Of a stretch of DNA of 64,000 nucleotides, positions 16,984 through 62,489 are shown one piece after another. The notes under the pieces were generated by a model. It was not told the DNA's origin. It did not search any database and worked only from the letters and a program-made list of their open reading frames with translations. Position 1 is the first letter of the stretch. Every line of letters starts with the position of its first letter. The translations under genes were made by a program, and so were the position numbers. Source of the stretch: Clostridiales bacterium (GTDB lineage: Bacteria; Bacillota; Clostridia; Christensenellales; Borkfalkiaceae); assembly GCA_015071005.1 (NCBI GenBank), contig SVIG01000001.1, forward strand, positions 62,001-126,000, read 5' to 3'.

Positions 16984-19194
16984 TCAAAAAGCGCGTTCCG
17001 TTTTGCAGGTCAAGTACACGATTTGATATTTTTGCGAAAGTTTTTTCACAAACGCCTTGGCGCGTTCCGTTTTTTCGTCGTCGAAATTCACGAACGGATC
17101 GTCCAAAATTAAGGTCGGTTTGTCCTTTTCAAACAAAGCATCCGCAAGCGCAATCCGCATGCAAAAATCCACGAGCTCTTTCGAGCCGACGCTGTAATAT
17201 TCCAGTTCCCGTTGTAAGCCGTTTTCTTCCACGCGTACTCTGCCGTCCGCGGCAAACCGCGTTGCCATTGCCACGTTCAACTCCGTCAAATATCGCTTAC
17301 AGCCGCTTTCCACGCCGTTTAAGTACCGTGAAGCCAAATTTTCCTGCGCGCGGCGTAAAATTTCCTTGGCTCTTACAATCGCCAAATGCCGTTTTTCCAA
17401 GCGCGTTTTTTCTTCCGTCAAGCGTTCTTCTTCGCCAAGCAAGGCGGACGCGTCCGCCCTTTCTTCCGCATTTTCCGCTTCGGTTAATTTGCGACTGCGC
17501 AAAGCGAGATTTTCTTCCTTTTGAGCTGTTTTTTCCTCCAATTTGGCTTTCAAAACCTCTATATCCTGTGCATAAGCAGGCAAATCCCTATCGTCAAAGG
17601 ACAACGCCTGCGCCTTTTCCGCATACGCCTGCACCGTTTCCGAGTGCTTTTTATAATCTTCTACGCCGCGTTTTAAGCTTTCAAGCGCCGCGCGGTAATC
17701 GTAAATTTCATCAAAACGGAAATAGCTCAAAAACTCTCGTATCCCCTTTTCAAGAGCTTGCATACGCGCCACTTTTTGCGTTTGTCCTTCATCCAACACG
17801 CTTTCCTGCGGATATGCCGCGAGTTTTTCTTGCAGGGCTTGCAATTCCCCAAGCGCATCCCTATAAAGGGGCTCATATTTCTCATAATCCGCTTGCGAAA
17901 CGGTCGGTTCGTTCGAAACAACCTTCTCACGTTTCGGCAACGTACGGAAAAACATTGCAATCAAGCCTAAGCCGCCCACACCAAGAAGCGCCGCGCCGAG
18001 CTGCCATTTCGTAGCGATAAACGCCGCACCGAGAAAAGCGAGCGTTAAACTTATGAGCAAAATCCATTTCGTACTCTTACGATGGGGTGGATAAATTTTC
18101 TTCCCTTTTTCCTTTCGACGCGTACCTGCCCCCTGCGTATCCCTTTTTTGCAAAAGTTCCTCGTAGGTTTTGACGACTTGTTCTTTAGCGGTGATTTGGG
18201 CGAGAAGCATTTCTCTTTCCGCCTTTTGCGCTTGTACACGCGCAAGCCCTTCCGCGCTCGCGTCCACCTGCGTTTTCAACGCGTAAAATTCGTCCACCGC
18301 CGCTTGCAAACCGTCCGTATTCACGCTTGCGGGATTGTTGTCGCCAAAAAAGAGCTTCAAGCGCGCAAGCTCTTTGTTCGCGTAATCGTACTGTGATTTC
18401 AATTCCTCGTAAACGCGGCGATTGGTTTCCAAGGTTTCTCGTTTTTGTTCCTGCTCAATTTCTTTTGTGAGTCTTTTAATATTCTCTTCCGCGTCGCTAA
18501 TGGCTAAGCTCGCCCTTTCTACGTCCTCCCAAGCGGCTTTTGCCGACAGCGCGTAGCCTTCCTTTTCCGCTTTTAAGCGCAAAATTTCCATGAGCCGTTC
18601 GTCGATTTCATCGAGTTTCCCCTTCGCAGGCTTACGTTTCGCGCGAAGTGCTTTGTCCGCGGCGTCCAAACGTTCCAGCGCGCGCGAACCGCCGTTTTCC
18701 CCGTTCGCGCTCAAAAGGCTCAAAAGCTTTGCCTTGATTCCGTCGGGCAATTCCCCCGTTTCAATCTCCCCTTGAGGCACGTACACGCTACGGCGATAGC
18801 TATCTCCGTCCATGCCGAAAAGAATCTCGCCCAAGCGCTCCGCTTTCTCGCCAAATTCATAACAAAGCATTTGATTTCCGTCCAAAACGCGCGCAAAATC
18901 CTGCGCAGGCGTTTGTCCAAATGTACGCTCTACACGGTAAATTTTTTCGTTGTATTCGAAGGTCAACGCGCCGCCGAACGTACCGCCCGACCAAGGCCGA
19001 TAATGGGCGCGATCATTCTCCGCAATTTCCTTTTTTCTGCCCCCGTCCAAGCCGAAGAACATACAGCGGATAAAATCTGCAAAGGTCGTTTTTCCCCAGC
19101 CGTTATCCTGCTTGATAACGGTTAGATCCTTCAATTCGATTCTTTTATTGACAAGCTTGCCAAAGCCTGCGATATAGCAAGAAAGTATTCTCAT
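16984..19194 (-). CDS. YhaN-like SMC/Rad50-type ATPase
   Basis: 736 residues. Walker A is DNGWGKTTFADFIRC near residue 31, and the C-terminal ABC half has LILDDPFVNFDDE. Between them lie long coiled coils interrupted at about residues 375-415 by a strongly hydrophobic stretch (two possible membrane helices), as in B. subtilis YhaN. The family resembles SbcC/Rad50 and works with a Mre11/SbcD-type nuclease, here the overlapping upstream gene (4-base ATGA overlap). The membrane-like hinge suggests a membrane-associated DNA-processing complex; this is inference. Confidence 0.85.
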   Translation of the reverse strand: MRILSCYIAGFGKLVNKRIELKDLTVIKQDNGWGKTTFADFIRCMFFGLDGGRKKEIAENDRAHYRPWSGGTFGGALTFEYNEKIYRVERTFGQTPAQDFARVLDGNQMLCYEFGEKAERLGEILFGMDGDSYRRSVYVPQGEIETGELPDGIKAKLLSLLSANGENGGSRALERLDAADKALRAKRKPAKGKLDEIDERLMEILRLKAEKEGYALSAKAAWEDVERASLAISDAEENIKRLTKEIEQEQKRETLETNRRVYEELKSQYDYANKELARLKLFFGDNNPASVNTDGLQAAVDEFYALKTQVDASAEGLARVQAQKAEREMLLAQITAKEQVVKTYEELLQKRDTQGAGTRRKEKGKKIYPPHRKSTKWILLISLTLAFLGAAFIATKWQLGAALLGVGGLGLIAMFFRTLPKREKVVSNEPTVSQADYEKYEPLYRDALGELQALQEKLAAYPQESVLDEGQTQKVARMQALEKGIREFLSYFRFDEIYDYRAALESLKRGVEDYKKHSETVQAYAEKAQALSFDDRDLPAYAQDIEVLKAKLEEKTAQKEENLALRSRKLTEAENAEERADASALLGEEERLTEEKTRLEKRHLAIVRAKEILRRAQENLASRYLNGVESGCKRYLTELNVAMATRFAADGRVRVEENGLQRELEYYSVGSKELVDFCMRIALADALFEKDKPTLILDDPFVNFDDEKTERAKAFVKKLSQKYQIVYLTCKTERAF

Positions 19195-20273
19195 AAATCG
19201 ATTTCCTCCCCTGCAAGCGCTTTCAAGCCCACGTCGAGAATTTCCGCGCGTTCTTCGTCGCTCAACTCGTACCTGCCCACCTCTTTCACAAACTCTCCGC
19301 GCTCGGAAAGATCGTTCGAAAAGGCGTTAAAATCCATCGCCAAACGAGAATTGTCCACCACTTTTGCGTAAAAATAGTTTTGCAAAAGCCGCGCGGTGAG
19401 AAGGGATATATCCTTACGCAGCCCAAGCTTGTGCCGACCAACTAATACCACTTTCACGATGTCGTCCGCGCGCACGTTCGTAAGCGCAGAACGAACGGCA
19501 CTTTCCACGTTATAATAGGTTTCACACGTGGAAATGTCCACGCCGCATTCTAAAATTCTGCGTTTTGCAAGCGTGAAAAACTGTTCGCCGACAAGCCGAC
19601 CGTTTTGAATATCCAAAAGAAAAAATCCGCGCTCGCCGCACTCGTCGAAGCCCCTGCCTTCCAAGCAACCGCAATAGCGGTATACGCCGCGCCCGTCCAA
19701 TCGCTCCAACGTACGATTGGGGATATGGATATGCCCAAGCGCCAAATAATCCACGCCCTTATTTTGCAACCGCGCAAGGGGTATGCAGTCCGCACTACCC
19801 GTTTCCATACGTGCGATTTCGCCGTGTAAAAGCAGGATATTATACCGCTCGGCACGCAGCGTAAGCGCGTGAAAAAGCCCAGGCGAAAAATAGGCGCTGT
19901 CCGCGCCCGTAACCGTGATATTTTCGGGCAAATCGTAGCTTCTCCAACCCTGACTATTGGAAAACGTACAAACGTTTTTAGGCAAATTTTCAATGGCAAA
20001 CGTACCGTCGTGATTGCCGGAGACGTAGAAAAAACACACGGGGCTTGCCTTTTCAAAAATATTCGCCACTTCTTGCTGCAAACTGCGCGGCACTTTTCTC
20101 TCGTCGAACAAATCCCCAGCAATCAGCACCGCGCTAACCCCCTGCTCTTTCGCAAACGTGCAAAGACGGCGGAATCCGTCCAGGATTTCGCTTCTCCGTA
20201 CCGCAGCTCTATCGGGCGGTAAGTTTTTGAATGCCGAACCGAGGTGTATATCCCCCGTATGTATAATCCGCAT
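19191..20273 (-). CDS. SbcD/YhaO-like DNA repair metallophosphoesterase
   Basis: 360 residues. Calcineurin-like motifs appear in order: GDIHLG (residue 7), AGDLFDE, SGNHDG, LLLHGE and ALGHIH. These ligate the two metal ions of Mre11/SbcD/YhaO nucleases. The C-terminal domain of about 100 residues probably contacts the partner ATPase encoded downstream. The pair is usually linked to DNA end processing. Confidence 0.9.
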   Translation of the reverse strand: MRIIHTGDIHLGSAFKNLPPDRAAVRRSEILDGFRRLCTFAKEQGVSAVLIAGDLFDERKVPRSLQQEVANIFEKASPVCFFYVSGNHDGTFAIENLPKNVCTFSNSQGWRSYDLPENITVTGADSAYFSPGLFHALTLRAERYNILLLHGEIARMETGSADCIPLARLQNKGVDYLALGHIHIPNRTLERLDGRGVYRYCGCLEGRGFDECGERGFFLLDIQNGRLVGEQFFTLAKRRILECGVDISTCETYYNVESAVRSALTNVRADDIVKVVLVGRHKLGLRKDISLLTARLLQNYFYAKVVDNSRLAMDFNAFSNDLSERGEFVKEVGRYELSDEERAEILDVGLKALAGEEIDL

Positions 20274-20430
20274 AATCCACTCTCTTTCGTTCTTTTTTCT
20301 TAATTATAGCACGCGCGCGCGAAAAAGTAAAGAGCGCGCGCAAATTTTTCGTCTATTTTTTTTTGTTAAACGCGTACACGGTAGCCGCAAAATGAGAAAA
20401 CTCCCCGTTTTTACGGGAAGCTTTTACTCT

Positions 20431-20772
20431 TTATTTCGACATTTGCAAAATCGCGAACAACGCGGCGAATACGACAAGCATAATCCCCGTCGCAATCCAC
20501 TTAATTTTGCGTTGCTTTTGTTTGTTCATCGGCACGTAAATCGTATGTCCGCAAACGGGACATTTCCCGTTTTCCATCAGCGTTTTACAACGCCGACAAT
20601 GAATTTCTTGCGGCATTGTATCGTCGTACTCACGTTTATACTTTTCTTCCTTTTCAATCTTATCAATAGGCTTTGAAATCGGCGCTAAGCCCTGCGCTTC
20701 TAACGCCTTGTCCATCTCCGCCAAAATACGCGCTTCTTCTTCCCTTTTTTGCTGTCTTGTTTTTTTACTCAT
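20431..20772 (-). CDS. Small zinc-ribbon membrane protein
   Basis: 113 residues. A charged N-terminal region (KKTRQQKREEEARILAEMDK) is followed by a zinc-ribbon (CRRCKTLMENGKCPVC) and one C-terminal helix (WIATGIMLVVFAALFAIL). I do not recognise a named family. AAGGAAAA precedes the ATG. It lies 12 bases after cardiolipin synthase and is probably co-transcribed with it. Confidence 0.7.
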   Translation of the reverse strand: MSKKTRQQKREEEARILAEMDKALEAQGLAPISKPIDKIEKEEKYKREYDDTMPQEIHCRRCKTLMENGKCPVCGHTIYVPMNKQKQRKIKWIATGIMLVVFAALFAILQMSK

Positions 20773-20784
20773 CGTTTTTTCCTT

Positions 20785-22374
20785 TTATAGTAAAGTTTCA
20801 AATACCCGTAAAAGCGAATCGACAATCCGCCCTACCATACTCCGTTTCGTGTTTTCTTTCGTGCAAAGGGTACTGATTGCAAAGGTTTCCTCGCAATCTC
20901 TTTCCAAATCCTTCACCGCTTGACAAGACGAGAAATACACCGCGTTTTCAAAGTGGTGATAAAAACTCCGATAATCGAAGTTTATCGTTCCCACTACGGC
21001 GCTCTCCCCGTCGCAAAGCACGCTCTTCGCATGAATAAACCCACGCGTATATTCGTAAATTTTGACGCCTGCTTTGAGCAAAATCCCATAGTTAGCGCGC
21101 GTCAAACGATACACCGTCTTTTTATCGGGAACTCCCGGTGTGACGATTCTTACGTCCACGCCGCGAAGCGCTGCTCGGCAAAGCGCCGCACGCAAGCTAT
21201 CCCCTAACACCAAGTAAGGCGTGAAAATATACACGTACGATTTCGCCCGTTCAATCATATCGACGTACACGTTTTCCCCGACGCTCAAATTATCAAGCGG
21301 CGACGAATCGTAGGGCTGAATCACAGCACCGCTCTCTCCGCCGTTTAAGGGGGGCAGGTACGCAACCAAGTCCTCTTTTTCTTTATAAAACGCGTTCCAA
21401 AAATGGAAAAACATACGGACAAAGGACGCCACCGCGTTCCCCGATACCATAATCCCCGTATCCTTCCAATGCCCAAAACGCTGTTTTTCGCCGATATATT
21501 CATCCGCGATATTGATACCGCCCGTGAACGCGGTTTTTCCGTCCACAACGAGCATTTTTCGATGATCGCGATTGTTCATACGCACCGCAAAAAAAGGTAC
21601 GACCTTGTTAAAGCGCATCGCTTTCACGTTCTCGTGCAAGCTCTCTAAATACCGATCGTATTTTGGCGGCAGGGAAGTCATACACCCAAAATCATCGTAG
21701 ATAATACGGATTTGTACCCCTTCTTCCGCTTTTTCGAGCAGGATTTGCAAAATTTCGCTCCACATCTTGCCATGCGACAGAATAAAATACTCCAAAAGTA
21801 TAAACTTTTCGGCTTTTTTAAGCTCCGCTTTCATACTTTCGAACATCTTTTCGCCACAATCGTAATAAACGACGTCCCCATCATACGCAGCAGGACACCC
21901 TGCATATCGATGCAAAAACCGACTGATTGTGTCCGCGCGCGTTTGCGCGTTCTTTTGTTTTACGCCCCCGAACGAGCTATCAAAAGCCGCGGCATTCTCT
22001 TTTCCCGAGGCGGCAAGCTGTTTTTTGATTTTGTGCGCAGGTCTGCCCTCGCCGTACAAAAGATACATCGGCACGCCGACAATCGGTACAATCAGCATCA
22101 ACAAAATCCAATTCAGCTTCATAGACGGCCGATCGTTGCGGTTGATTAGATAAATCACCGCGATCAAGGCAAGCAAGCCGACCGTCGCCTCCACCGCCAT
22201 TGCAATTTTGGACGAATACACAAGCGTGTATAAAAGCCAAACGTAGCCGATAATTTGCAAAAGCACCAAAATCAGGAAAATAAAAAAGCGATTGTATAGA
22301 AAAACTTTATAACTTCTATCGTTGGCGATCGTTCTTTCTATTCGTTTTTTCTTTTTCTCACTAATTTTCCGCAA
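20785..22374 (-). CDS. cls: Cardiolipin synthase (phospholipase D type)
   Basis: 529 residues. Two or three N-terminal membrane helices precede two phospholipase-D motifs: HRKMLVVDGKTAFTGG and HAKSVLCDGESAVVGTINFD. The enzyme joins two phosphatidylglycerol molecules into cardiolipin. The frame opens at an ATG at 22455, but a perfect promoter (TTGACA-17-TACAAT) lies inside that extension, so translation cannot begin there from this promoter. TTG at 22374 has GGTGA four bases upstream and is the best start. Confidence 0.9.
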   Translation of the reverse strand: MRKISEKKKKRIERTIANDRSYKVFLYNRFFIFLILVLLQIIGYVWLLYTLVYSSKIAMAVEATVGLLALIAVIYLINRNDRPSMKLNWILLMLIVPIVGVPMYLLYGEGRPAHKIKKQLAASGKENAAAFDSSFGGVKQKNAQTRADTISRFLHRYAGCPAAYDGDVVYYDCGEKMFESMKAELKKAEKFILLEYFILSHGKMWSEILQILLEKAEEGVQIRIIYDDFGCMTSLPPKYDRYLESLHENVKAMRFNKVVPFFAVRMNNRDHRKMLVVDGKTAFTGGINIADEYIGEKQRFGHWKDTGIMVSGNAVASFVRMFFHFWNAFYKEKEDLVAYLPPLNGGESGAVIQPYDSSPLDNLSVGENVYVDMIERAKSYVYIFTPYLVLGDSLRAALCRAALRGVDVRIVTPGVPDKKTVYRLTRANYGILLKAGVKIYEYTRGFIHAKSVLCDGESAVVGTINFDYRSFYHHFENAVYFSSCQAVKDLERDCEETFAISTLCTKENTKRSMVGRIVDSLLRVFETLL

Positions 22375-22414
22375 TTTCTCACCCGTTTTTAGTATGGTCG
22401 AACACCATGATTTT

Positions 22415-22443
22415 ATTGTATCAGCTTCCGCCCGTTTTGTCAA
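22415..22443 (-). promoter_or_regulatory. Sigma-A promoter of cls
   Basis: Minus strand TTGACA, 17 bases, TACAAT, lying within the open frame upstream of the TTG start; this rules out the longer start. Confidence 0.85.
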
Positions 22444-22562
22444 ACTTTTTTTCATTATATTATATACGTATCAAAATTGCGTTTCCGTTTCGTGAAAATT
22501 TTGTAAAAATACCCCCTTTCCCAAGTTCAAAAAATTTTTTTCAACTTTTTTATAAAAAACTA

Positions 22563-22591
22563 TTGACAAACGCGCTGTTTTGTATTATACT
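22563..22591 (+). promoter_or_regulatory. Sigma-A promoter of the rubrerythrin gene
   Basis: TTGACA, exactly 17 bases, TATACT. No PerR-like palindrome is obvious around it. Confidence 0.88.
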
Positions 22592-27375: not shown

Positions 27376-27978
27376 TTATTTGTCCTCCTTTTTTGTGCAT
27401 TTTTTCGTTTTTGCAGGGGGCGTGTCCGTATTTACCGCATTTTCGCCCACCGTTTCGCAACGGATATTGTCGTTGGTGAATACGCAAATTTCCGAAGCGA
27501 TTTTCAGCGCTTTTCTCGCGATTGTTTCCGCGTCGTAATCGGTTTCTTGGAAGAGCGCACGTGCCGCAGCCAAGGCGTAATTGCCGCCGCTGCCGATTGC
27601 GCAAACCCCTTCGTCCGGCTCGATTACTTCGCCCGTACCCGAAAGAATCAGCAAAGTGTTTTCGTCCGCGGTGATCATCATCGCGTCGAGTTTTCTGCCC
27701 ACTTTATCACTTCTCCAAAGCTCCGCAAGCTCTACCGCCGAGCGCATCAAGTTCCCGCCGAATTTATTGAGCATGCCTTCAAACCGTTCGGTAAGCGCAA
27801 ACGCGTCCGTCACCGAGCCTGCAAAGCCCAAAATTACCTTGCCACCGTAAATACGGCGCACCTTTACCGCGGTATTTTTGAAAATAACCGATTCGCCCAT
27901 CGTCACTTGACCGTCGCCGGCAATTGCCGTCACACCCTTCTTTTTGACTGCGCAAATCGTCGTTCCTCTAAATTCCAT
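27376..27978 (-). CDS. hslV: HslV, peptidase subunit of the HslVU protease
   Basis: 200 residues. After MEFRG comes the conserved TTICAV; the first Thr would be the N-terminal nucleophile after processing. [16 protein letters not shown] and [10 protein letters not shown] are family hallmarks. A Lys/Thr-rich C-terminal extension of about 20 residues is beyond the usual end. AGGAGG before hslU lies within this extension. Confidence 0.96.
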
Positions 27979-27996: not shown

Positions 27997-29319
27997 TTAT
28001 AAAGTTTGAGCTATTTCTTTCATTTTTGCAAGCGCGCGTTCCGCCAAAGCGCGGTAGCGCTCTTTTTTATCGCGAATCCGCATAGGCATCGGCGCGAGAA
28101 TTCCAAAATTCGCGTTCATCGGTTGGAAATCCTTCACCGCCGTGGAAATATGCGTTTCCAAAGCGCCGCACACCGTCTCTTCGTCAAAGACGTGGGCAGG
28201 TCTTCCCAAAATTTCGTCCGCGATATGTATCGCCGCCAAAAGTCCGCTCGCCGCGCTTTCCACATACCCTTCAACGCCCGTGATTTGCCCTGCAAAAAAC
28301 AGCCTTCGATTATTTTTAACCGAAAAATCACGATTCAAAACATCGGGGGACTGAATATACGTATTTCTATGCATAACCCCGTAACGCAAGAACTCCGCGT
28401 TCTTCAAAGCAGGGATCATAGAAAACACCCGTTTTTGCTCGGGAAATTTCAAATTCGTTTGAAACCCAACGAGATTGTAGCAAGTGCCGTCCGCGTTTTC
28501 CTTCCGAAGCTGCAAAACGGCATACGGCCGTTTTCCGTCCTCGTCAAAAAGCCCTACGGGCTTAAGCGTACCGTAGCGGAGGGTGTCTACGCCGCGCGAA
28601 GCCATCACTTCCAAAGGCATACAGCCTTCAAAAATTTCCCGTTTTTCAAATTCGTGCAGCTCCGCCTTTTCCGCTTTCAAAAGCTCGTCCACGAACGCAT
28701 AATATTCTTCCTTGTTCATCGGGCAGTTGATATAATCTCCCGTACCCTTGCCGTAGCGATCGCCCGTGAACGCGCAAGTCATATCCACGCTCTCCGCCGA
28801 AACAATCGGCGCGGACGCGTCGTAAAAATGCAAGCCGCCGCCCGTCTTTTCTAAAATGTCCGCACTTAAACGATCGGACGTGAGCGGTCCGGTCGCAATG
28901 ATCGCGTACCTGTCCCCACCCTTTTGTAATTCAGGGAGCTTTTCCACTTCTTCGCTAATCAGCGTAAGATTGGGAACTGCGCGCAATTTCTCGGTGATGT
29001 ACGCCGAAAATTTTTCTCTATCCACCGCCAAAGCCGCACCGGCAGGTACTTTCGTTGCGTCCGCCGCCTCGATAATCATTGAACCGAGAATACGCATTTC
29101 TTCCTTCAAAAGTCCGCAGGCGTTGGCGTAAAAATCGTTGCTTTTAAGGGAGTTGGAGCAAACCAATTCCCCGTAATTTTCGCTCTCGTGCGCAGGCGTG
29201 AACTTCTTGGGCTTCATTTCGACAAGGGTCGTCTTAATGCCGTGCGAAGCCAAATAGTACGCCGCTTCGCTCCCTGCAAGTCCGCCGCCGATGACAAGTA
29301 CTTCTTTATTCGTTGTCAT
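27997..29319 (-). CDS. trmFO: tRNA U54 methyltransferase, folate/FAD-dependent
   Basis: 440 residues. An N-terminal FAD-binding VIGGGLAGSEAAYYLA is followed by the family motif YGELVCSNSLKSN. The enzyme makes ribothymidine at position 54 of tRNA using methylenetetrahydrofolate. Its start overlaps the topA end by 14 bases. The order dprA-topA-trmFO-hslV-hslU matches Bacillus, but the xerC/codV gene that usually lies between trmFO and hslV is absent. Confidence 0.96.
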   Translation of the reverse strand: MTTNKEVLVIGGGLAGSEAAYYLASHGIKTTLVEMKPKKFTPAHESENYGELVCSNSLKSNDFYANACGLLKEEMRILGSMIIEAADATKVPAGAALAVDREKFSAYITEKLRAVPNLTLISEEVEKLPELQKGGDRYAIIATGPLTSDRLSADILEKTGGGLHFYDASAPIVSAESVDMTCAFTGDRYGKGTGDYINCPMNKEEYYAFVDELLKAEKAELHEFEKREIFEGCMPLEVMASRGVDTLRYGTLKPVGLFDEDGKRPYAVLQLRKENADGTCYNLVGFQTNLKFPEQKRVFSMIPALKNAEFLRYGVMHRNTYIQSPDVLNRDFSVKNNRRLFFAGQITGVEGYVESAASGLLAAIHIADEILGRPAHVFDEETVCGALETHISTAVKDFQPMNANFGILAPMPMRIRDKKERYRALAERALAKMKEIAQTL

Positions 29320-38262: not shown

Positions 38263-39429
38263 ATGACGAACTTCCTTATTCGTATTTTTATCGGCAAGAA
38301 TAAAGACCCGAACGATCCAAAGGTACGGGGCAGGTACGCGTCCATGGCAGGTTTTACGGGGATTTTGCTCAACGTTTTGCTCTTTGCGGGCAAGCTGACC
38401 TTGGGTATTATCGCAGGCTCGGTCGCCATCATCGCGGACGCGTTCAATAATATCTCGGACGCAGGCTCGGCAATCGTCACCTTGATCGGTTTCCGCCTTG
38501 CAAGCAAGCCCGTGGATAAAGAACACCCCTTGGGGCACGGCAGAGCGGAATACGTGACCGGCTTCATCGTCGATATGCTGATCATCTTGGTCGGTTTCGA
38601 GCTTTTCAAAAGCTCTATCGACAAAATTATTCACCCCACCACCCCGACCGTCGGGATCGCAACGACTATTCTTCTTTGCGTGGCGGTACTTGTGAAAATT
38701 TGGCTGTTTTTCTTCTACCGCAAAGTCGCTATCACCATTCGCTCGTCCGCGATTAAAGCGGCTTCGTTCGATAGCTTGACCGACTGCGTTGCGACCACAC
38801 TCGTACTCGTCTCCGCGATTCTTTCCAAGCATTTCAGCTTCGGCATCGACGGCTATGCGGGGATTCTCGTTGCCGCATTCATTATGTTCACGGGAATCAA
38901 AGCGGCGAAAGAAACCATCAATCTTTTGCTCGGTTCTCCCCCCGAGCCCGAATTTATCGAAAAAATCTACGAGTTCAGCAAAGGCTATCCGCGCGTGATC
39001 GGTATTCACGACGTTATGGTGCACGACTACGGTCCCGGCAGACAAATCGTTTCCTTCCACGCGGAAGTGCCTGCAAATGAAGATATCAATATTGCACACG
39101 AAGAAATCGATCAATTAGAACGGGATTTACACGCCAAGCTCGGCTGTATTGTGACGGTGCATTTAGACCCCGTCGTAACCGACGATCCCGTTGTCAACGA
39201 GCTGCACGCTATTGCGGAAACCGCGGCAAAAGAACTTAACCCTGCGTTTAGCATACACGATTTCCGTATCACCAAAGGCGAAACGAACGTAAATATGATT
39301 TTTGATTTGGTATTACCCGTAGACTGCAAAATGCCTGCGGAAGAAGCGGAAAACGCCGTTTCCGAAAAGATTCGAGAACGCGTACCAAACAGCTTCTGCG
39401 TAATCCGCGTAGAACACCCCTTCGTATAA
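38263..39429 (+). CDS. Cation diffusion facilitator (CDF) exporter
   Basis: 388 residues. Membrane helices contain the metal site pattern IADAFNNISDAGS and the paired SFDSLTDCVATT, then HPLGHGRAEY between helices 2 and 3. A cytosolic ferredoxin-like domain with GIHDVMVHDYGPG follows, plus a second C-terminal domain of about 90 residues. CDF proteins export Zn2+, Fe2+ or Mn2+. The Asn-rich site (DAFNN) and the divergent Mn-riboswitch antiporter make Mn2+ a reasonable guess. GAAGGGA lies before the ATG. Confidence 0.9.
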   Translation: MTNFLIRIFIGKNKDPNDPKVRGRYASMAGFTGILLNVLLFAGKLTLGIIAGSVAIIADAFNNISDAGSAIVTLIGFRLASKPVDKEHPLGHGRAEYVTGFIVDMLIILVGFELFKSSIDKIIHPTTPTVGIATTILLCVAVLVKIWLFFFYRKVAITIRSSAIKAASFDSLTDCVATTLVLVSAILSKHFSFGIDGYAGILVAAFIMFTGIKAAKETINLLLGSPPEPEFIEKIYEFSKGYPRVIGIHDVMVHDYGPGRQIVSFHAEVPANEDINIAHEEIDQLERDLHAKLGCIVTVHLDPVVTDDPVVNELHAIAETAAKELNPAFSIHDFRITKGETNVNMIFDLVLPVDCKMPAEEAENAVSEKIRERVPNSFCVIRVEHPFV

Positions 39430-39465
39430 TTCAACGCGTACACGGTACGTTGTAATTTGAAATGA

Positions 39466-40683: not shown

Positions 40684-41599
40684 CTCGTTTTTCTCCTCGT
40701 ATCTCTTTCAACTTTTTATTCGCGTAAGCAATCATTTGCACCCCAATTCCAATCGAAAGCAAGCTGACCGCAATCCCCGTAAGGGTGTTGAACAGTGCAA
40801 CGTTCAATCCTTCCGAACCAAACGTGCCCAAAAGCGCCGTTTGCAAGGCTAAAATGGACACCGCGGCATCCGCCAAGTTCACGTTTCGTATCGCTTGCAC
40901 CGTCAAATCCATTTGTTTTCTCGCCTTGAAAAGATTGATGATTGACATCGTAATCTTATAAAACGCGTACGCCGCAAAAGCATAAATCGTCCAACCGGCA
41001 TACTCGAATTTCCGATTGGAAAAAATCATTTGCGCGATCGCCGCCGAGAGCGCGACGTTGAGTATCAACAGCCAAAAACCGCATTTACGGTACACCCGTG
41101 TACGCGTTGAATAACTATCCTCGCGTTTTTTCGCGTTCTTTTTTCGATGGTAGGTGAGTACGCTACCGCGAAGCAGTGCAAGGAAAATATAGTACGCCGC
41201 GAGCGCGCCAAACCATATCGATTTCATCATAATCCCCAAAACGCCGTTGTAAATCCCGAACGCGATACTCAACGAAAAAGAACCGATGGTAAGCACGATC
41301 GTCCGAAACCCGTAGTTGCGTAAAAGGGAGCGGGTGAATTCGTATTTTTCCGCCCAGCTGATAATCCCCTTTTTTACCTTTGGCGCAAAGCGTATCAAAA
41401 GGTATACGCTATACGCAAGGCTACAAGCCGCTATGCCAAAAAGGGTATATGCCAAAATTGCCATCGGCATTTTTGAAAAGTCGGTGAGCAACATACACAG
41501 CGACCCAACGCACGCTGAAAAGGTAATCAACCCGTTCAATATTGCCGCCCATTTCGGCGGGCTTTTGAATTTTTCCCAAAAACTCGACGAATTAGACAT
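40673..41599 (-). CDS. Multi-spanning membrane protein of unknown function
   Basis: 308 residues with about eight hydrophobic helices, including two halves of similar size separated by a basic loop (YHRKKNAKKREDSYSTRTRVYRKCG). No transport or enzyme motif is evident. It overlaps the kinase gene by 8 bases and the next gene by 11, so it is translated with the signalling pair and may be its partner or target. Confidence 0.78.
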   Translation of the reverse strand: MSNSSSFWEKFKSPPKWAAILNGLITFSACVGSLCMLLTDFSKMPMAILAYTLFGIAACSLAYSVYLLIRFAPKVKKGIISWAEKYEFTRSLLRNYGFRTIVLTIGSFSLSIAFGIYNGVLGIMMKSIWFGALAAYYIFLALLRGSVLTYHRKKNAKKREDSYSTRTRVYRKCGFWLLILNVALSAAIAQMIFSNRKFEYAGWTIYAFAAYAFYKITMSIINLFKARKQMDLTVQAIRNVNLADAAVSILALQTALLGTFGSEGLNVALFNTLTGIAVSLLSIGIGVQMIAYANKKLKEIRGEKRDGK

Positions 41600-42644
41600 C
41601 GCAAACTTCCTTTAAGGTGACTTCAAAGCAGCTCCCTTTCCCAAGCTCGCTATGCACGGAAATTTCACCGCCCAAAACGTCCACGACTTTTTTAACGAGC
41701 GCAAGTCCGAGCCCATTTCCTTCTTGCGCGTGGGAAGTGTCCCCTTGATAGAATTTTTCAAAGATCCGCGCGCCCGTTTCAGGGGAAATACCGCAACCCG
41801 TATCAGACACCGAAACCACCGCGTTTTTGCCTTGTTTTTTGAGCGTAATCTCGACCCTGCCCCCCTCGTTTGTGAATTTCGCGGCATTGGAAAGCAGGTT
41901 ATTCCAAATCAGCTCTAAAAGAGACGGCACGGAATATGCCGTAACTTCGTCCAAATCGCAAACAAGCTCGATTCTCTTATTTTCCAAAAGCTCTTCGTAG
42001 GCAACGACGCACTCCGCTACAAGCGCGGTGAGATCGAAACGTTGATATTCAGGCTGAATCTTTTGATTTTCAAGCTTATTGAGCTTCAAAATGTTCGTAA
42101 TCAAATCGGAAAAGCGTTTCGCCGCCTGCGAAAGAATTTTCGCGTATTTTTGTCGAGATTCTTCGTCTAAATCTTCCTTTTGCAAAAGTTGCGAATAATT
42201 TTGAATCACGGTAAGCGGCGTTTTTAATTCGTGCGAAACGTTGGAAATAAAGTCCGTTTTCAAAACTTCCGTCTTTTCCAGCTCCGCCGCAAGGGTGTTG
42301 ATATTTTCCATAATCAAATCGTAGCCCGTGTATTTTCCATATTCGTGGTCGAGCTGTAAACGTGCCGAAAAATCCCCTTTTGCAATTTCATCCGTCACTT
42401 TTAGGATTTTTTCAACAGGTTTTTCCACCATAAATTTTCGACGAATTACGTCCACCGTCGTACACACAAAAGACAAAATTAAAATATCGACAAGTAGCAG
42501 TACGCCGATCAAAAAATTATTGTCCGTCTTTTGGATAATGAAATCATAAGAGAGTACGGCAATCTGAATCACGAGCGCGATTAAGATAAAGAAGAATACC
42601 GCACCCCACAAAAAGCCGTGCTTTCTAAACCCACGTTTTTTCAT
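41592..42644 (-). CDS. Sensor histidine kinase (PhoR-like)
   Basis: 350 residues. Two N-terminal membrane helices with almost no outside loop are followed by a HAMP region (VEKILKVTDEIAKGDFSARL). The phospho-acceptor H-box is NVSHELKTPLTVIQ, the N-box NLLSNAAKF, G1 DTGCGIS and G2 GNGLGLALVKKVV. With no large sensor domain it may sense through partner membrane proteins such as those encoded downstream. It overlaps the regulator gene by four bases (ATGA). Confidence 0.95.
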   Translation of the reverse strand: MKKRGFRKHGFLWGAVFFFILIALVIQIAVLSYDFIIQKTDNNFLIGVLLLVDILILSFVCTTVDVIRRKFMVEKPVEKILKVTDEIAKGDFSARLQLDHEYGKYTGYDLIMENINTLAAELEKTEVLKTDFISNVSHELKTPLTVIQNYSQLLQKEDLDEESRQKYAKILSQAAKRFSDLITNILKLNKLENQKIQPEYQRFDLTALVAECVVAYEELLENKRIELVCDLDEVTAYSVPSLLELIWNNLLSNAAKFTNEGGRVEITLKKQGKNAVVSVSDTGCGISPETGARIFEKFYQGDTSHAQEGNGLGLALVKKVVDVLGGEISVHSELGKGSCFEVTLKEVCDV

Positions 42645-43312
42645 TTTAGCACCGCCTTATAGCCAAGTCCGTGCACCGTCACTATCTCAAAGCCGTCGCA
42701 AGCGGAAGTCTTTTCGCGAAGCTTTGCCATGTACACGTCCACCGTCCGCGAAGTCGCGGAAGAATCGTAATCCCAAAATTCGTTCATGAGCGCCGAACGC
42801 GTAAACGTCTTCTTCGGGTAGGATAAAAACTTGAAAAGCAAATCGAATTCTCGTACGGTCAGCGCCAATTCCTCGCCGTCTAAATACGCCGTATGCTCTT
42901 CCGCATTCATCGTCAAATTTCCCACCGTCAAGCTTTTGCTTTCAGCAATCCCCGCACGGCGTAAAAGCGCCGCAACTTTGAGCATAAATACGTCCATATC
43001 AAAGGGTTTGACTACGTAATCGTCCACGCCGAGTGTATAAGCAAAAAGCTTGGACGGCTTATCATCCTTCGCCGTCATAAATAAAATAGGGATTTGTTTA
43101 TCGCTCGCGCGAACGTTTTCCGCAAACTCAAAACCGTCCATTTTCGGCATCATAATATCGCTGATGATCATCGAAAAAGACGCATTTTCCATCGCCGTCA
43201 AGCCTTCTTCTCCATTGTAGCACGCGGTCGGCTCGTACCCCTTTTCCCGAAGATACGCGCACACCAAGCCGTTGATCGCTTTATCGTCTTCTACCACCAA
43301 AATTTTAACCAT
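42641..43312 (-). CDS. OmpR/PhoB-family response regulator
   Basis: 223 residues. The receiver domain has the acidic pair (VVEDDKA), phospho-acceptor Asp in IISDIMMPKMDG, Thr in LFMTAKDD and Lys in YVVKPFD. The C-terminal winged-helix has ALTVREFDLLFKFLSY and TVHGLGYK. ATG at 43312 begins the receiver domain; an in-frame start at 43360 would put the -10 region inside the gene. Upstream are three TTWACA repeats, suggesting it binds PhoP-like boxes and regulates itself. Confidence 0.95.
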   Translation of the reverse strand: MVKILVVEDDKAINGLVCAYLREKGYEPTACYNGEEGLTAMENASFSMIISDIMMPKMDGFEFAENVRASDKQIPILFMTAKDDKPSKLFAYTLGVDDYVVKPFDMDVFMLKVAALLRRAGIAESKSLTVGNLTMNAEEHTAYLDGEELALTVREFDLLFKFLSYPKKTFTRSALMNEFWDYDSSATSRTVDVYMAKLREKTSACDGFEIVTVHGLGYKAVLK

Positions 43313-43342
43313 AACCGCATACCTGCCCCACTCTTTTTGCCT

Positions 43343-44086: not shown

Positions 44087-45133
44087 TTATTCGTTATCGA
44101 GTGTTTTCAAGCATTGCTTAAACGCCGTCGGCAAAGAAATGCTCTCTTCTATTTCATCAAGCGCAAACGTATCGAACGGCGCGCTGTCCGTTTGCACCCA
44201 TACGCACGTAATATCCCAACGGATATGCGTAAAAATATGAGTATACTTTTCCCTTTTCCTCTCGTTAAACTCGTACACGCCCCACTCGTTTAAGATATTT
44301 TCCGCACTTTCGCCGAACTCGACCACGTGCGAGGGAAACTCGTTCATACCGCGCAAAACACCCTGCTTCCTTCTGCGAATGCAAAAGCCCTGCGGCGTTT
44401 CTATCAAGAAAACGTATACCTTTTCGAGGCGTTTTTCTCGTTTTTGGGGTAACACGGGGTATTTGTGCTGCGTGCCATTTTGATATGCGCGGCAAAGCCC
44501 CTTTAACGGACATTCTAAGCACACAGGCGAAGTCGGTTTACATACGAGTGCGCCTAGCTCGAAAATGCTTTGCGTAAAATCAGCGCAAAGACTACCCTCT
44601 TTGGGATAAACCGCCGACAAGGTTTCTTCTAAATATTTTCTATACTTCGGATCGGAGATCACGCTTGGATTTTCTTCCAAACGCGAACAAACGCGGAAAA
44701 CGTTTCCGTCCACCGCCGCCGCGCGCTTCCCAAAAGCAATAGAGGCAATCGCGCCTGCGGTATAGCTGCCAATCCCCGAAAGCCCTTTCAATTCTTCTAT
44801 CGACTTTGGAAACTCGCCGCCGTAAACGCTTACAATCGTCTTTGCGGCTTTTTGCAAATTTCTAGCGCGAGAATAATACCCCAAGCCTTCCCATAATTTC
44901 AATAACCGCTCTTCTTCGCAAGCGGCAAGCGCTTCCACCGTCGGAAGCTCTTTCATAAAGCGGACGTAATATTCCTTCACCGCTTCTACACGGGTTTGTT
45001 GGAGCATAATTTCCGATATCCACACTTGATACGGCGTTGGATTATTCCGCCAAGGCAGATCTCTTTTGACCTCTTGATACCACTTAATCAAGGGGGCAGG
45101 TATGCGTTGAAAATCAAAACTTGTTTCTTTCAT
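44087..45133 (-). CDS. mutY: A/G-specific adenine glycosylase
   Basis: 348 residues. The HhH-GPD core has SEIMLQQTRV (catalytic Glu) and LSGIGSYTAGAIASIAF followed by VDGNVFRV (catalytic Asp). The [4Fe-4S] loop is C-x6-C-x2-C-x5-C (CKPTSPVCLECPLKGLC), and a C-terminal MutT-like domain recognises 8-oxoG. It removes adenine opposite 8-oxoguanine. The coding start contains an exact copy of the dispersed motif GGGGCAGGTATGCG on the opposite strand. Confidence 0.96.
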   Translation of the reverse strand: MKETSFDFQRIPAPLIKWYQEVKRDLPWRNNPTPYQVWISEIMLQQTRVEAVKEYYVRFMKELPTVEALAACEEERLLKLWEGLGYYSRARNLQKAAKTIVSVYGGEFPKSIEELKGLSGIGSYTAGAIASIAFGKRAAAVDGNVFRVCSRLEENPSVISDPKYRKYLEETLSAVYPKEGSLCADFTQSIFELGALVCKPTSPVCLECPLKGLCRAYQNGTQHKYPVLPQKREKRLEKVYVFLIETPQGFCIRRRKQGVLRGMNEFPSHVVEFGESAENILNEWGVYEFNERKREKYTHIFTHIRWDITCVWVQTDSAPFDTFALDEIEESISLPTAFKQCLKTLDNE

Positions 45134-46115: not shown

Positions 46116-46119
46116 TTCC

Positions 46120-47379
46120 TTATTCGTTTGTTTGCAACGGCAAGCCGTCTTGTTTTTTCTTCGTTTTCCAAATACAAAGGAATACGAAAATGGCAAGCAA
46201 CGGGAAAATCGCACCCACCGCCATACCAGCCTTCATGCTCAACTGCTCGATCGACAAATGTAAACTATCCGCAAGCTCTACCGCCCAACCGCTTTTTGCA
46301 ACTGCGTCCGTCACCGCGCCTACAAGCTGCGGTCCTGCCGACGCGCCGAGATCGCCGCCTGCCGCCATCATTGCGTACATAAACACACCTGCCGTTGGCA
46401 TTTTTTCCGCCGCAACAATCAAGCTCCCCGGCCAAAGCATCGCCGTACAAAATCCCGTCATCGCACAGGCAATCAAGCCAATGATTGCGATATTAGAAAG
46501 AATTGCCACCACGTAGCACGCGAACGCGCCAAGCGCACTCAAAAAGAGCACTTTTTCGATATTTTTCCCTTTCTTCGCGTACATGGTACGCCCCAATCCA
46601 AGCATTAAGCCGAATCCGGCAACCCCGAAAACGTCCCCCCATACCTTTTTAATTTTAAGCGCTTCCTCCAAATACCCCGAGCTCCATTGCGCCATAGACA
46701 CTTCGCTCGCACCGCCCAAGAAAATACCGAAAACGCACAGCCAAAGGGCTTTTGATTTCATCAAGGCAAGCGCGCCCGTTGCTTTTTCGGGCGTTTCCAT
46801 CTTCGGGAATTTTGCGCCTAAAAAGAGCGCGAAGGAAATAAGCGGCACAAGCGAAAGCCCCAACGAAAGCCACTGCCAATACTTATTATCAAAAAGGAGC
46901 AAATAGACAGTCGCAATAATAATCACCGCCACGACGCCCCACGCGTAAATGGAATGAAGCTTACTCATTTCCTTATCGGGATTCTCACTCGGAATTGCGC
47001 CCACAACGGAACTTAACAGCACTTCTGCAAGTCCGCTAGACGCCGCAAAAATAAACGTGCCGAGCACGAACCCTGCGTAGACGGCATTCGGGAAAAGCGT
47101 CGGCGCGAGAGAAAAGAGTACAAGCCCCAGCGCCGCAATTACAGGCGTGAGCTTTACCGTCAAAATAATATTGAATTTATGCGAGAAAAAAGAGAATATT
47201 AAATCCACGCTAAGCTGCGTCAAGAAATTGATCAGCACGAGCGTGCCTAAAAGGGTAAACGAAATCCCGTATAAATTGCGAAACGTCAAAAAAAGCACGG
47301 GCGGTAAATTCCCAATCACCGCCATCGTAATATTGCTCGCATAGCACGCGTATTTCACGCGCGAATAACACTTATCCAT
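46120..47379 (-). CDS. Major facilitator superfamily transporter
   Basis: 419 residues with twelve membrane helices. The N-terminal half has NLPPVLFLTFRNLYGISFTLLG and the C-terminal half GFCTAMLWPGSLIVAAEKMPTAG, a pattern seen in sugar/fucose-permease-like MFS proteins. The substrate is not determined. It is a single gene with TATAAT at 47408-47413 upstream. Confidence 0.88.
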   Translation of the reverse strand: MDKCYSRVKYACYASNITMAVIGNLPPVLFLTFRNLYGISFTLLGTLVLINFLTQLSVDLIFSFFSHKFNIILTVKLTPVIAALGLVLFSLAPTLFPNAVYAGFVLGTFIFAASSGLAEVLLSSVVGAIPSENPDKEMSKLHSIYAWGVVAVIIIATVYLLLFDNKYWQWLSLGLSLVPLISFALFLGAKFPKMETPEKATGALALMKSKALWLCVFGIFLGGASEVSMAQWSSGYLEEALKIKKVWGDVFGVAGFGLMLGLGRTMYAKKGKNIEKVLFLSALGAFACYVVAILSNIAIIGLIACAMTGFCTAMLWPGSLIVAAEKMPTAGVFMYAMMAAGGDLGASAGPQLVGAVTDAVAKSGWAVELADSLHLSIEQLSMKAGMAVGAIFPLLAIFVFLCIWKTKKKQDGLPLQTNE

Positions 47380-49309: not shown

Positions 49310-49353
49310 GCCTTCAACGCGTACATGCCCCCCCCTCTTTACGGAGAAAACTT

Positions 49354-55769: not shown

Positions 55770-55775
55770 ATAATC

Positions 55776-55808
55776 AGGGCAGGTATGCGTTCAACGCATA
55801 CCTGCCCC
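55776..55808. repeat. Inverted pair of the GGGCAGGTATGCG motif, probable spoVT terminator
   Basis: GGGCAGGTATGCGTT and its complement face each other around one base, just after spoVT, followed by CCTTCTTTT. The right arm is an exact copy of the dispersed GGGGCAGGTATGCG motif. Confidence 0.85.
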
Positions 55809-55833
55809 CTTCTTTTATGCTATTTGAGCTCGA

Positions 55834-61800: not shown

Positions 61801-62010
61801 GTCATTCGTGTAGGTCGACCAATACGTATTCCCGTTTTGAATACGGAACGCATAGTCCCCTTCAATGGCGAGCGTCCAATTCTCCGTAGAGAGCGTTTCC
61901 GCGCTTGCTTTTTTGATTTGAGGACGGCCAAACGCAATACCTAGCGCAAGCGCCATAAAAGCAAATGCGCTGAGCAACCAAGTTAATACTTTTTTCGTCA
62001 ATCTTGTCAT
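55834..62010 (-). CDS. Giant secreted multidomain protein with C-terminal module shared with 47681
   Basis: 2058 residues. An N-terminal signal/membrane segment (VLTWLLSAFAFMALALGIAFG) is followed by repeated beta-rich blocks of about 130-160 residues. Each has a phrase such as INGKTLSEINAE, VNGTSVRDWNKQ, INGQSVYDINAT or INGVSIYDINTT. Two InlB-type repeats lie near residues 655-715 and 1030-1090 (TFTGWKDSDGNDFSF). Residues about 1500-1610 match the beta domain, and 1625-2055 the module with YDAGRQIQQSWYANVGG, of the lipoprotein at 47681. No sortase signal is seen. It is probably a polysaccharide-binding or -cleaving surface protein; the activity is unknown. AAGGAGG precedes the ATG. Confidence 0.85.
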   Translation of the reverse strand: MTRLTKKVLTWLLSAFAFMALALGIAFGRPQIKKASAETLSTENWTLAIEGDYAFRIQNGNTYWSTYTNDVTTESMLDYTEINGKTLSEINAETPGAITVTLQPAGGTIGSFYRVTINSAVSDLTRHDLGTVKVRAGWSHTDANGTYTIDTDLYFAHKQTAASQGDTWKYIPAANVVDISDDIVLQDQGVIATNTRSILLKTTGTAYWSGFTPNEHGGAFLNMLYVNGTSVRDWNKQAHAALDAGEITDITYGSGHGTISGNKGVYAPIFVWNAAYDAGVGGCYAQTWIPTGYISNVSSYKVSKGMGWLTDDGTFYYVAKDVEYVKSGSSFEKVASAVDISDTLTFYNGGTSEATDTYYIYTKGGQKWTAAYGSTGSTALGEYEWKGQSDTSKQGGSVQMSFMYINGQSVYDINATDNEAYGSTHGNISSGTAKFAPIMAWVVPYNSTLGGSAITIQIPSAYPGNKTTITIKKGFYVVDTSTNIKYEVTKDVQWDYENGAWGEHVEKIETSVDDAKIFFNGSSTTDAFAGISLAGSDYAVAPSTYAGTVKTAKSYAQSANFLSHILIDDAALNKPGEAYLNVWGKMGYFTFRPGNVSATKITILAGCQFPTYNALLNGAKEVYVTTEDVTFIKDSSGNWVLDEGVTTYTVTVDGVAQTVEEGGYAVAPTETPTKAEDENYTYTFDNWYIVDTDIVFDFDTAITQDYNVESRFTANPKDTTVQVSFTAVLDKDSNDTYGKSIRFNTVGVQWTTSHSWVAAADWASIADNTLINGKSVTEINAGITEGQKLTLMMQPAQDSQGNYSFSFLRVYIPEAVMSVDNVMTMAIKEGWSFDNGSKTYVASATQEFYNSAGAMATISEKLSSSEVTISDLRVDGVENELYKVDITSTNWTIGVNEFDYNYFGAQYQNVRRNIYINGVSIYDINTTVDDSSYTYRTSPMTNTSTDTGTGYDLFANPVLIQSIKGGNTLTLWIHKDYIASLGTGDITVTLDVGLAVVYDSGTVLLEEKSQVVGGNYVVRVEDYNGTVLDTQIVAKGGYATAVPNPSRPTTTTGIYTFTGWKDSDGNDFSFNTPITGDITIIAQYDEQAISLEETDIVSIQFRYNGSTDNWLIFTLSNHDYACATGGTAYSVSYEELQRIGFLDNVILKGTIGSGSTTSTVSEATLAEIFAQNGRGEGRYINTWGEGTFGIRIINTPAYDSIKEIVVKAGTQFPSYEYACNDGETDTRFMVYSETVFQSGTATQGVDSAGNKVDSWTTPFGATVSGYDIYMADGAAIRITNLDNYDGSQNYMETEGYKKSGIRFQTWISKESLAQMQSYLADGIYTSVSFGTLIVPSADLVGGEFTHEWLEANSIQYMDIASSAELTQGGWAFAAETDDEVTFFGSIVNLKSTNHNRYFSGVGYIAIVKEGETEPTYFYASYNQSSSRSASYIAQAAVADRSETQDGPYKYKIEENNNWSPYTEGEIAFLKLYMGTLTETEATAESFTLTSDGKLSSDASSTRNTGTLTVNKKLSGAYVTLNYQTNIDVWGKFYYRNAADTKSAVEDFYLPKGSSQHKQYLDLFRYNGVGTLAGLTANDLYLTKIEFQNATVDMSSSGTFKFLGLYSSNNTLDTANLEVYVTKSLTAGGEMTVGAHLGLGGALTYLAKSGIYEGVTGQSENSSFYQNYLGYTKYKYNTGSIVLSKDSSVFDENRATGNKTTEAGYYGHAESSKPGDGAVNLINNYDAGRQIQQSWYANVGGSLSGNTGANGYTRLDCTTGAGGYWPYNPVQAGDCKSNPGQIIDYEVNKAKGYIYVKTRAMDWAYGDTSKGGYEYGSTTKSYMENYYRLNADGTVYVNNSFVDWNGFTDMDKCDYQLVELPALYPVQTLNYFFTYDGASPWTGGSLTKRSDLSSWTGGTSHYQSTNDTAANGKVGEEWVAWANDTNGSVALGMYIPNVNRFTSGRSQNAVTTATSANVNASSNYLKSKGLMSNMPAISYSYQSTYVQNTSYTAAGVSFRMEAYVPIEYTYVLAVNDINTIRSQFKAIYESGKVTNASSQAGVKAGLDAWARSDKIWTQV

Positions 62011-62025
62011 TCTCTTTGTCCCTCC

Positions 62026-62139
62026 TTAACCAAAAATGTCCTCTTTTGTGTCGTCGCCGACTTCAAACGTATTCGAGCAACGCACCACTTCCTCGCTGAT
62101 GAGTAAAATCTCCACGATTAACTCTTCATACTTCTTCAT
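62026..62139 (-). CDS. 37-residue peptide gene upstream of the giant protein
   Basis: MKKYEELIVEILLISEEVVR, then CSNTFEVGDDTKEDIFG. An AGGAGG lies nine bases before the ATG. The stop codon (TAA) abuts AAGGAGG of the giant gene, so translation is probably coupled. There is no signal peptide. The layout (KKYE start, hydrophobic middle, Cys/Ser then acidic Gly/Asp tail) resembles small clostridial peptides of unknown role, some of which could be modified-peptide precursors. No modification enzyme is adjacent. Confidence 0.75.
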   Translation of the reverse strand: MKKYEELIVEILLISEEVVRCSNTFEVGDDTKEDIFG

Positions 62140-62489
62140 TTAGGTTTTCCTCCTATGCTTGCCAATTTACAAGTCGCAAACCTGTCAACTAATAGATTAC
62201 AATATCATTATAACATAATAAAAACATTTTTTGTTGCTATATTTTTTGCTTTATTTGTCATTTATTAACCAATTTCACTATGATTAAGCCGTTTAACATT
62301 CAATTAATCCGTTTCCGCTTAAAAAAAAAGATAAATATCCTAGTGCAATTATTGAACGAAAATTATTATACAATCGAAAAATCACAAGGGCAGATATGCG
62401 TTCAACGCATACCTGCCCTAACTTTATCCATTAAATCCCTGCGTATTTAATTCATTTGTTCACCATACCAATATGCCAATGGCTACTCA
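62140..62489 (-). promoter_or_regulatory. Intergenic region with extended -10 promoter
   Basis: TGTTATAAT on the minus strand at 62207-62215 can drive the peptide-giant operon; no good -35 is seen. The rest is AT-rich apart from the inverted motif pair at 62387-62419. No gene recognised. Confidence 0.6.
62387..62419. repeat. Second inverted pair of the GGGCAGGTATGCG motif
   Basis: AGGGCAGATATGCGTT and AACGCATACCTGCCCT, almost the same palindrome as at 55776-55808 (one mismatch), located downstream of the rhamnosidase gene on the minus strand and possibly acting as its terminator. Confidence 0.8.

Follow-up and report, generated by a model that had tools for sequence, protein, structure and literature searches.

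Dispersed DNA sites that are scarce around the replication terminus (Ter) are known from two nucleoid-occlusion proteins, Noc and SlmA, which one source describes as unrelated to each other (PMC4726725). The same source reports a site-dependent block of division for a plasmid with Noc sites, and gives around 70 Noc sites in Bacillus subtilis, under-represented at Ter, and 24 to 52 palindromic sites in Escherichia coli, likewise under-represented at Ter, for the TetR-family protein SlmA (PMC4726725), while a second source places Noc at 41 loci in Staphylococcus aureus, all but one of them in the origin-proximal half of the chromosome (PMC5540599). A different kind of repeated word is found in the uptake sequences of the Neisseriaceae, described in a third source as a very abundant short motif with dialects between genera (PMC3630211). 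This article deals with a 64,000-nucleotide stretch of contig SVIG01000001.1 (hereafter the window) from a Clostridiales bacterium of the family Borkfalkiaceae, and with a degenerate motif of about 27 bases that recurs in it and throughout its genome, a metagenome-assembled genome (MAG; here G000) of 1.687 Mb in 12 contigs, with 94% completeness, of which about 44% of the letters (736 kb) were read. The motif is nearly absent from the inferred replication terminus and is probably a chromosome or division signal, not a DNA-uptake tag.

Like the Noc binding sites (NBS) and the SlmA binding sites (SBS), the motif is dispersed on the chromosome and under-represented at the terminus. It differs from the NBS, whose consensus is a 14-bp palindrome, in being about 27 bp long and without a clear dyad, and from the SBS, which are fewer, palindromic and of another sequence. 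With the uptake sequences of the Neisseriaceae it shares abundance on both strands and genus dialects, but here the uptake machinery was not found and the terminus lacks the motif. HIP1 of cyanobacteria is likewise a highly iterated word, patchy between species, but is an 8-bp palindrome and is not known to have a terminus gap. In listings of the accessible literature on uptake sequences in Negativicutes, Firmicutes and Clostridia, on clostridial nucleoid occlusion, on the nucleoid in Christensenellales and on over-represented, terminus-linked motifs, no description of the motif was seen.

A first-pass annotation of the window had singled out a dispersed 14-base word as a DNA-uptake or architectural signal. 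The word is a real repeat, but merely the strongest portion of a longer motif with the consensus 5'-AAAnGnnGGGGGCAKGTAYGCGTTGAA. Weight matrices started from three seeds arrived at one and the same motif of about 27-30 bp, approximately aaa.g..gggggCakGTaYGcGtTgAa, the left half of which is variable (GGGGGCAG form vs TACCATG or TACCGTG forms). The matrix sample comprised the window and 20 stretches of 20 kb from the same genome (464 kb in total), in which the top over-represented 12-mers are mostly fragments of this one motif; a strong site is one with a weight-matrix score of 18 or more, and in the main control synonymous codons were shuffled within genes and noncoding DNA was shuffled. The sample contains 158 strong sites, against 8.8 in the control, with 55 in noncoding DNA and 103 within genes (76 sense and 27 antisense). 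The 14-mer itself has 13 matches in the window with up to two mismatches, where 0.61 are expected and none of 100 shuffles reaches 13, and 118 matches in the whole genome with up to one mismatch (54 forward and 64 reverse, 50 of them exact), against 3 for a backwards-read control. The claimed excess over chance is thus borne out, and the word, far from being confined to the window, is found genome-wide and genus-wide. The scores are bimodal, with 162 strong sites against 9.5 expected and only 20 sites scoring 10-12 against 31 in an overlapping 464-kb set without the terminus stretches. Extrapolation from the observed densities gives roughly 300-490 motif sites for the genome.

The position of the terminus follows from contig 10, of which 13 stretches covering 260 of 262 kb were read. 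GC skew switches near 40 kb (38-42 kb) from about +0.19 to -0.08, and gene direction changes with it, from 34 plus-strand and 2 minus-strand genes in the 40 kb to the left to mostly minus-strand genes on the right. Because both the G-rich leading strands and the genes converge there, we infer from skew and gene direction that this is the replication terminus. Among the genes to the left of the switch are folD and spoIVB, together with genes for a polyprenyl synthetase, an FtsJ-family protein, a RecN-type protein and a D-Ala-D-Ala carboxypeptidase. No good match to a dif consensus was detected near the switch. The dnaA gene lies at G000 C2:45.9 kb (L287:5577-6911), between a divergent RecF/RecN-like SMC_N gene and mnmG, at a locus with neither a skew switch nor a cluster of consensus DnaA boxes, and the replication origin was not located in G000.

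Around this terminus the motif all but disappears. The first 160 kb of contig 10 hold a single strong site, where about 51 are expected, vs 184 in the other 576 kb, and the terminus stretch that carries a gyrase B-like gene, argS, ychF, miaA, mutL and mutS has none. Column-permuted matrices, which control for the lower GC content of the terminus, find 30 to 59 matches in the same 160 kb (54 of 60 matrices being usable). The plain core pattern behaves in the same way (0 in the 160 kb of the terminus vs 82 in 576 kb elsewhere), as does noncoding DNA taken separately, with 0 sites in 24.9 kb at the terminus, about 20 being expected, vs 64 in 80.5 kb elsewhere. When 6740 9-mers were ranked, without preselection, by depletion near the terminus, the top four were all fragments of the motif, led by GGGCAGGTA (1 against 67). 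Beyond 160 kb, contig 10 has 3, 6, 2, 2 and 6 strong sites per 20 kb, the mean of the first 21 stretches being 6.7. Weak motif matches show no clear avoidance near the terminus.

Several causes of the gap were considered and rejected. That the matrix was fitted to some of these stretches does leave a trace, in that training sequence outside the terminus is denser (158 sites in 444 kb) than held-out sequence (26 in 132 kb), yet the held-out terminus still has just 1 site in 140 kb, where about 28 are expected. Conservation of the terminus genes is no better as a cause. They are indeed more conserved, with a median identity of 81.4% (61 genes) vs 71.6% (111 genes) elsewhere, the comparison species differing, yet at 60% identity and above the gap remains: genes whose best match is 60-80% identical have 0 sites in 26.8 kb at the terminus vs 15 in 48.3 kb elsewhere, and those 80% or more identical have 0 in 45.1 kb vs 6 in 37.1 kb. 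The sole strong site of the terminus lies in a gene of the 50-60% class. Accessory DNA fails likewise: L129, an accessory stretch, has no site either, but most of the terminus region is core.

A second repeated element was observed in the same sequence. Arrays of small hairpins separated by CAATTCACG occur between genes, often with flanking AT-rich ends, the word having about 45 copies in 464 kb; it is likewise rare near the terminus (1 against 52). Examples are:
L127:14563-14760, CAATTCACG hairpin array
L128:2224-2400 and 10228-10273, CAATTCACG hairpin arrays
L132:15027-15180, CAATTCACG hairpin array
L134:835-1040 and 3166-3300, CAATTCACG hairpin arrays
L141:2455-2480, 9768-9930 and 12657-12870, CAATTCACG hairpin arrays

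The gap of the 27-base motif stands firm in this species and has good support in a second one; for two further species the support comes from short stretches. In G049, 57 of the 61 matched terminus-region genes find their best match within the first stretches of C1, its largest contig; no core match falls in C1:1-143 kb among the places listed (100 of 116, in contig order), and a direct count of the first 140 kb gave 0. Matrix sites there number 2 in C1:1-140 kb vs 19 in seven later 20-kb stretches of equal total length. The gene tex, located about 30 kb from the terminus in G000, served as a landmark in other genomes: G080 has 0 sites in 30.3 kb near tex vs 24 in 80.1 kb elsewhere, and G182 has 0 in 20 kb near tex. 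The tex-bearing contigs of G088 (C5:36-224 kb) and G002 (C7:1-183 kb) also lack core matches, which is weak support with genome totals of just 32 and 21.

Nucleoid-occlusion sites are characteristically dispersed and missing at the terminus, hence a reading of that type. We put at about even the chance that the motif sites are the addresses of a putative terminus-excluded DNA-binding protein acting like a nucleoid-occlusion factor. Such a sequence-specific protein would bind the motif and thereby mark the chromosome everywhere but at the terminus; as in the Noc and SlmA systems, occupied sites would hold the division ring away from the nucleoid; and the terminus, free of sites and the last region at mid-cell, would let division proceed when replication and segregation are nearly done. 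The terminus gap would then be what selection maintains. The architectural half of the proposal made by the first-pass annotation fits, as does the replication-linked motif that it had named as an alternative, given the near absence at the inferred terminus.

A number of observations weigh against a nucleoid-occlusion factor. The cognate binding protein was not found: the ParB signature GERRxRA has just two matches, in frames of 45 and 34 amino acids (aa), in a search whose loci cover less than half of the genome. In the 736 kb read, no match to the Noc site has fewer than 2 mismatches. Noc and SlmA sites are palindromic, and dyad symmetry of the motif is not clear (best self-correlation 0.38); its sites are also several times more numerous than those of Noc. 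Site-poor stretches exist outside the terminus too (L129 with 0, L281 with 1), the GC content of the terminus stretch is 0.432 vs 0.450-0.470 elsewhere, and among 6851 7-mers the three most depleted are other GC-rich words, e.g., CGCCGCC, a motif fragment coming fourth. Three genus members (G126, G020 and G060) nearly lack the motif, with zero strong sites in the stretches scanned. Finally, in a sister genus, the one 20-kb stretch examined near tex has 3 copies of the related word CCATGTCYG vs 3 to 7 in other sampled stretches of the same genome (G027); that stretch has no skew switch, and no terminus was located in that genus.

The 12-bp SBS has 8 matches at 2 mismatches and none better in the 736 kb, and the motif is unrelated to it. 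As a separate observation, a parS word has three one-mismatch matches in G000, mutually distant (L138:13371, L268:16261 and L282:6717), and a ParB-parS system may exist in this genome.

The same distribution data would suit some other chromosome-organising role with terminus exclusion, such as condensin loading or anchoring, a macrodomain factor or a membrane tether, with no direct effect on the division ring. The high density of sites is better suited to coating of the nucleoid than to a few regulatory loci, and the leading-strand bias of the sites, 114 of the 158 strong sites being on the leading (G-rich) strand, is permitted. Such a role has, however, less precedent than nucleoid occlusion, and we know of no described chromosome-organising system with dispersed, terminus-excluded sites, the literature searches having been aimed largely elsewhere; we regard it as a serious but rather unlikely explanation.

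The strand bias also bears on a recombination or translocation signal, e.g., Chi, or the FtsK-orienting polar sequences (KOPS) and SpoIIIE recognition sequences (SRS). Over-representation in coding DNA and genus specificity speak for such a signal together with the bias itself, which may, however, come from the net G content of the G-rich version of the motif. Chi and KOPS/SRS signals measure about 5-8 bp, far less than the 27 bp of the motif, and signals like KOPS, which direct DNA to the terminus, should occur there, where the motif is nearly absent. The dialect of the sister genus, moreover, has no clear strand preference (163 forward and 193 reverse copies in G185; 73 sense and 81 antisense sites in G027). 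A signal of this kind is very unlikely.

The motif was also counted among relatives. At up to one mismatch, at least 20 copies occur in 24 of the 29 genus species sampled, this one included, and in just 2 of the 172 family members outside the genus (21 and 22 copies); in the order outside the family (142 members) counts go no higher than 17, a backwards control reaching up to 24. Across 57 genus genomes the core pattern ranges from 2 to 248 copies, the controls giving 0 or 1 per strand, and the poorest members are G126 (2), G020 (3), G060 (5), G137 (6), G363 (7) and G352 (8). In the sister genus g9 a related word, ACCATGTCYGMR, is found at least 20 times in 17 of the 28 species (maximum 356, in G185); this word also reaches at least 20 copies in 4 of 5 members of genus g4 and 2 of 29 of g1, and in none of the other 139 family genomes, where the highest count is 12. 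A longer form of the g9 motif in 140 kb of G027 gave 99 sites at score 14 vs 21 after codon shuffling, and 166 vs 82 at score 10; the original G027 site list used a threshold from reversed sequence, and judged by codon shuffling about half of the weakest entries on it are background. For G185 and G145, expectation-maximisation settled on codon periodicity, and those models were discarded. No dispersed motif of this kind was recognised among the over-represented words of G060, G007 and G010.

Some sites persist while proteins diverge. An antisense site about 410 bases into comEC recurs in G000, G080, G348, G368, G359 and G114 (scores 17, 17, 27, 24, 28 and 25), although the ComEC proteins of the other genus members are 46-51% identical to the copy of this genome (G000). 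The peptide at the site is K/R-L-x-A-Y-L/M; motif-poor G020, G126 and G060 and intermediate G002 differ in peptide at that position, and intermediate G088 has RLVAYV and no listed site. The pattern suggests that the motif may have shaped the ComEC protein there.

Genus dialects and recurring orthologous sites are also what an uptake sequence would produce, if transformation preferentially imported motif-bearing DNA so that the motif accumulated. This explanation was the first to be followed, for the density of the motif, its dialects and its pairs at gene ends, and it draws further on the presence of copies on both strands, within genes and at gene ends with occasional inverted pairs, on ComEC in 57 of 57 genus genomes, and on dprA and comM, both present in the window as the first-pass annotation had stated. 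It was dropped on the pilus, ComEA and terminus results. A PilB/ComGA/Tad ATPase (PF00437, E below 1e-130) occurs in only 3 of the 57 genus genomes, the best match here being 1.5e-4. Nor do pilus ATPase and motif go together in g9, 20 or more copies being present in 4 of 8 genomes with the ATPase (E below 1e-118) and in 13 of 20 without it; one of those 13, G066, has a weaker ATPase match at 1.3e-28. The ComEA model TIGR00426 has no match over its cut-off in 201 genomes, a cut-off reached in only 5 of 14 controls; among the matches listed, the weaker ones are mostly in frames of about 720-800 aa, and the single one in this genome is tex (Tex by Pfam). ComEC here has 554 aa and Pfam matches only to PF03772 and DUF4131, with no lactamase_B domain. 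Core genes around the terminus are without the motif, the gyrase B-like, argS, mutL, mutS, RecN-type and spoIVB region being empty or nearly so, and such a near absence from core genes is unexpected under uptake bias. Uptake, the other half of the original proposal, is therefore unsupported and appears improbable.

Returning to the window, the weight-matrix scan finds 23 strong sites:
6081..6100, minus strand, score 21.9, within an ATP-binding cassette (ABC) transporter ATPase gene
9833..9852, plus strand, score 18.7, within a gene
10813..10832, minus strand, score 18.2, antisense within a gene
16123..16142, minus strand, score 18.7, within an ABC-transporter gene
18114..18133, minus strand, score 32.6, containing the exact 14-mer copy at 18119-18132, within a 736-aa gene without a Pfam match
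19261..19280, minus strand, score 28.8, within a metallophosphoesterase gene
20366..20385, minus strand, score 23.2, intergenic
21350..21369, plus strand, score 22.2, antisense within a phospholipase D (PLD)-family gene
27416..27435, plus strand, score 18.7, antisense within a gene
28898..28917, minus strand, score 27.7, within a GIDA-family gene
38326..38345, plus strand, score 26.9, within a cation-efflux gene
39430..39449, minus strand, score 25.4, intergenic, with a TACCGTG-type left half
41092..41111, plus strand, score 20.0, antisense within a gene
41845..41864, minus strand, score 23.4, within a histidine-kinase gene
43311..43330, minus strand, score 24.2, within a response-regulator gene
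44265..44284, minus strand, score 30.5, within a MutY-type gene (HhH-GPD and NUDIX_4)
45092..45111, plus strand, score 28.7, scored intergenic but inside the longest open reading frame (ORF) of the MutY-type gene (44087-45133)
46571..46590, minus strand, score 23.9, within a major facilitator superfamily (MFS) transporter gene, with a TACCATG-type left half
49313..49332, minus strand, score 32.2, scored intergenic, at the very start of ORF 49297-51318 in its longest reading
55775..55794, plus strand, score 27.5, left arm of an inverted pair between convergent genes
55790..55809, minus strand, score 36.0, right arm of the same pair, with a TTGAA loop
62386..62405, plus strand, score 23.4, left arm of the second inverted pair
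62401..62420, minus strand, score 26.0, right arm of the second inverted pair

The five exact copies, three one-mismatch copies and two inverted pairs reported by the first-pass annotation were all recovered at their positions. Two of its three host genes hold, as the cation-efflux and MutY-type genes, while the third, called yhaN (presumably 16984-19194), is without a Pfam match. Its argument that protein conservation does not explain the copies is upheld by the codon shuffles and the noncoding counts, on which that cause was rejected, but needs one exception: at 28898..28917 several relatives are similar at the same gene position, and a conserved protein explains part of that site. An Rfam search of the window found tRNA as the sole known RNA. 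As a side observation, the minus strand carries at 55834-62010 an open frame of 2058 aa with no Pfam match at E 1e-6 and with a motif inverted pair beyond both ends.

The first-pass annotation had likened the inverted pairs to those that serve as terminators among uptake sequences. The pairs exist, but tight ones (both arms scoring at least 14) are rare, with 4 among 220 sites in 724 kb, 2 of them in the window, and use as a terminator is a side feature. Together with occasional clusters of copies, pairs at some gene ends might recall the relics of a small mobile or repetitive extragenic palindromic (REP)-like repeat. Repeats of that sort have a conserved unit longer than the motif and are mainly intergenic, but here 103 of the 158 strong sites are inside genes and 55 are intergenic, and the comEC site is translated where it stands, as part of an aligned peptide. 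The sequence flanking the motif has almost nothing in common between copies, which makes them unlike transposed units. Such an origin is barely credible. Mobile elements as a source were also rejected, GGGCAGGTAYGCGTTGAA being found in only 2 viral contig stretches.

Other features were noticed along the way. A tandem noncoding repeat of about 97-125 bp with GAAAAGCCTCGC and/or GGCGCGTACTTG occurs at 12749-12960 of the window and at L141:16928-17560, L128:6290-6430 and L139:1823 and 2294. The tetranucleotide CATG is missing from G007 C8:1-140000 (L180-L186), with 0 copies vs about 439 expected from trinucleotides, and is scarce in G049 (24 against 253 in 120 kb), which suggests restriction pressure. 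Other repeated words, e.g., TTTAACTCGACC and GCAGCTAGCT, have 9-11 copies in 140 kb of G088 (C1:1-140000, L207-L213), and the 63% GC genome G010 (C1:1-120000, L194-L199) has TCTACATTCTAC-type and TGAGATCCCTCG repeats. The closest named relatives of one window protein are from Clostridia MAGs of sheep, deer and other animal guts (77-86% identity), followed by Ca. Scatosoma (75%) and Ca. Coproplasma (65-68%), in a listing that may omit records very near the genome itself.

Taken at its fullest, the nucleoid-occlusion reading would describe a novel system in uncultured gut Clostridia, with hundreds of non-palindromic sites, a reader unrelated to Noc and SlmA, dialects between genera and some sites kept while the proteins diverge, a proposal that we advance tentatively and at less than even odds. 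A repeat pattern resembling that of uptake sequences need not imply uptake, and a quick way to test for it is to plot site positions relative to the terminus. If the proposal is true, the motif would represent a third instance after Noc and SlmA, which would mean that the same chromosomal solution arises repeatedly, and the evolution of such a set of sites would be traceable across dozens of species.

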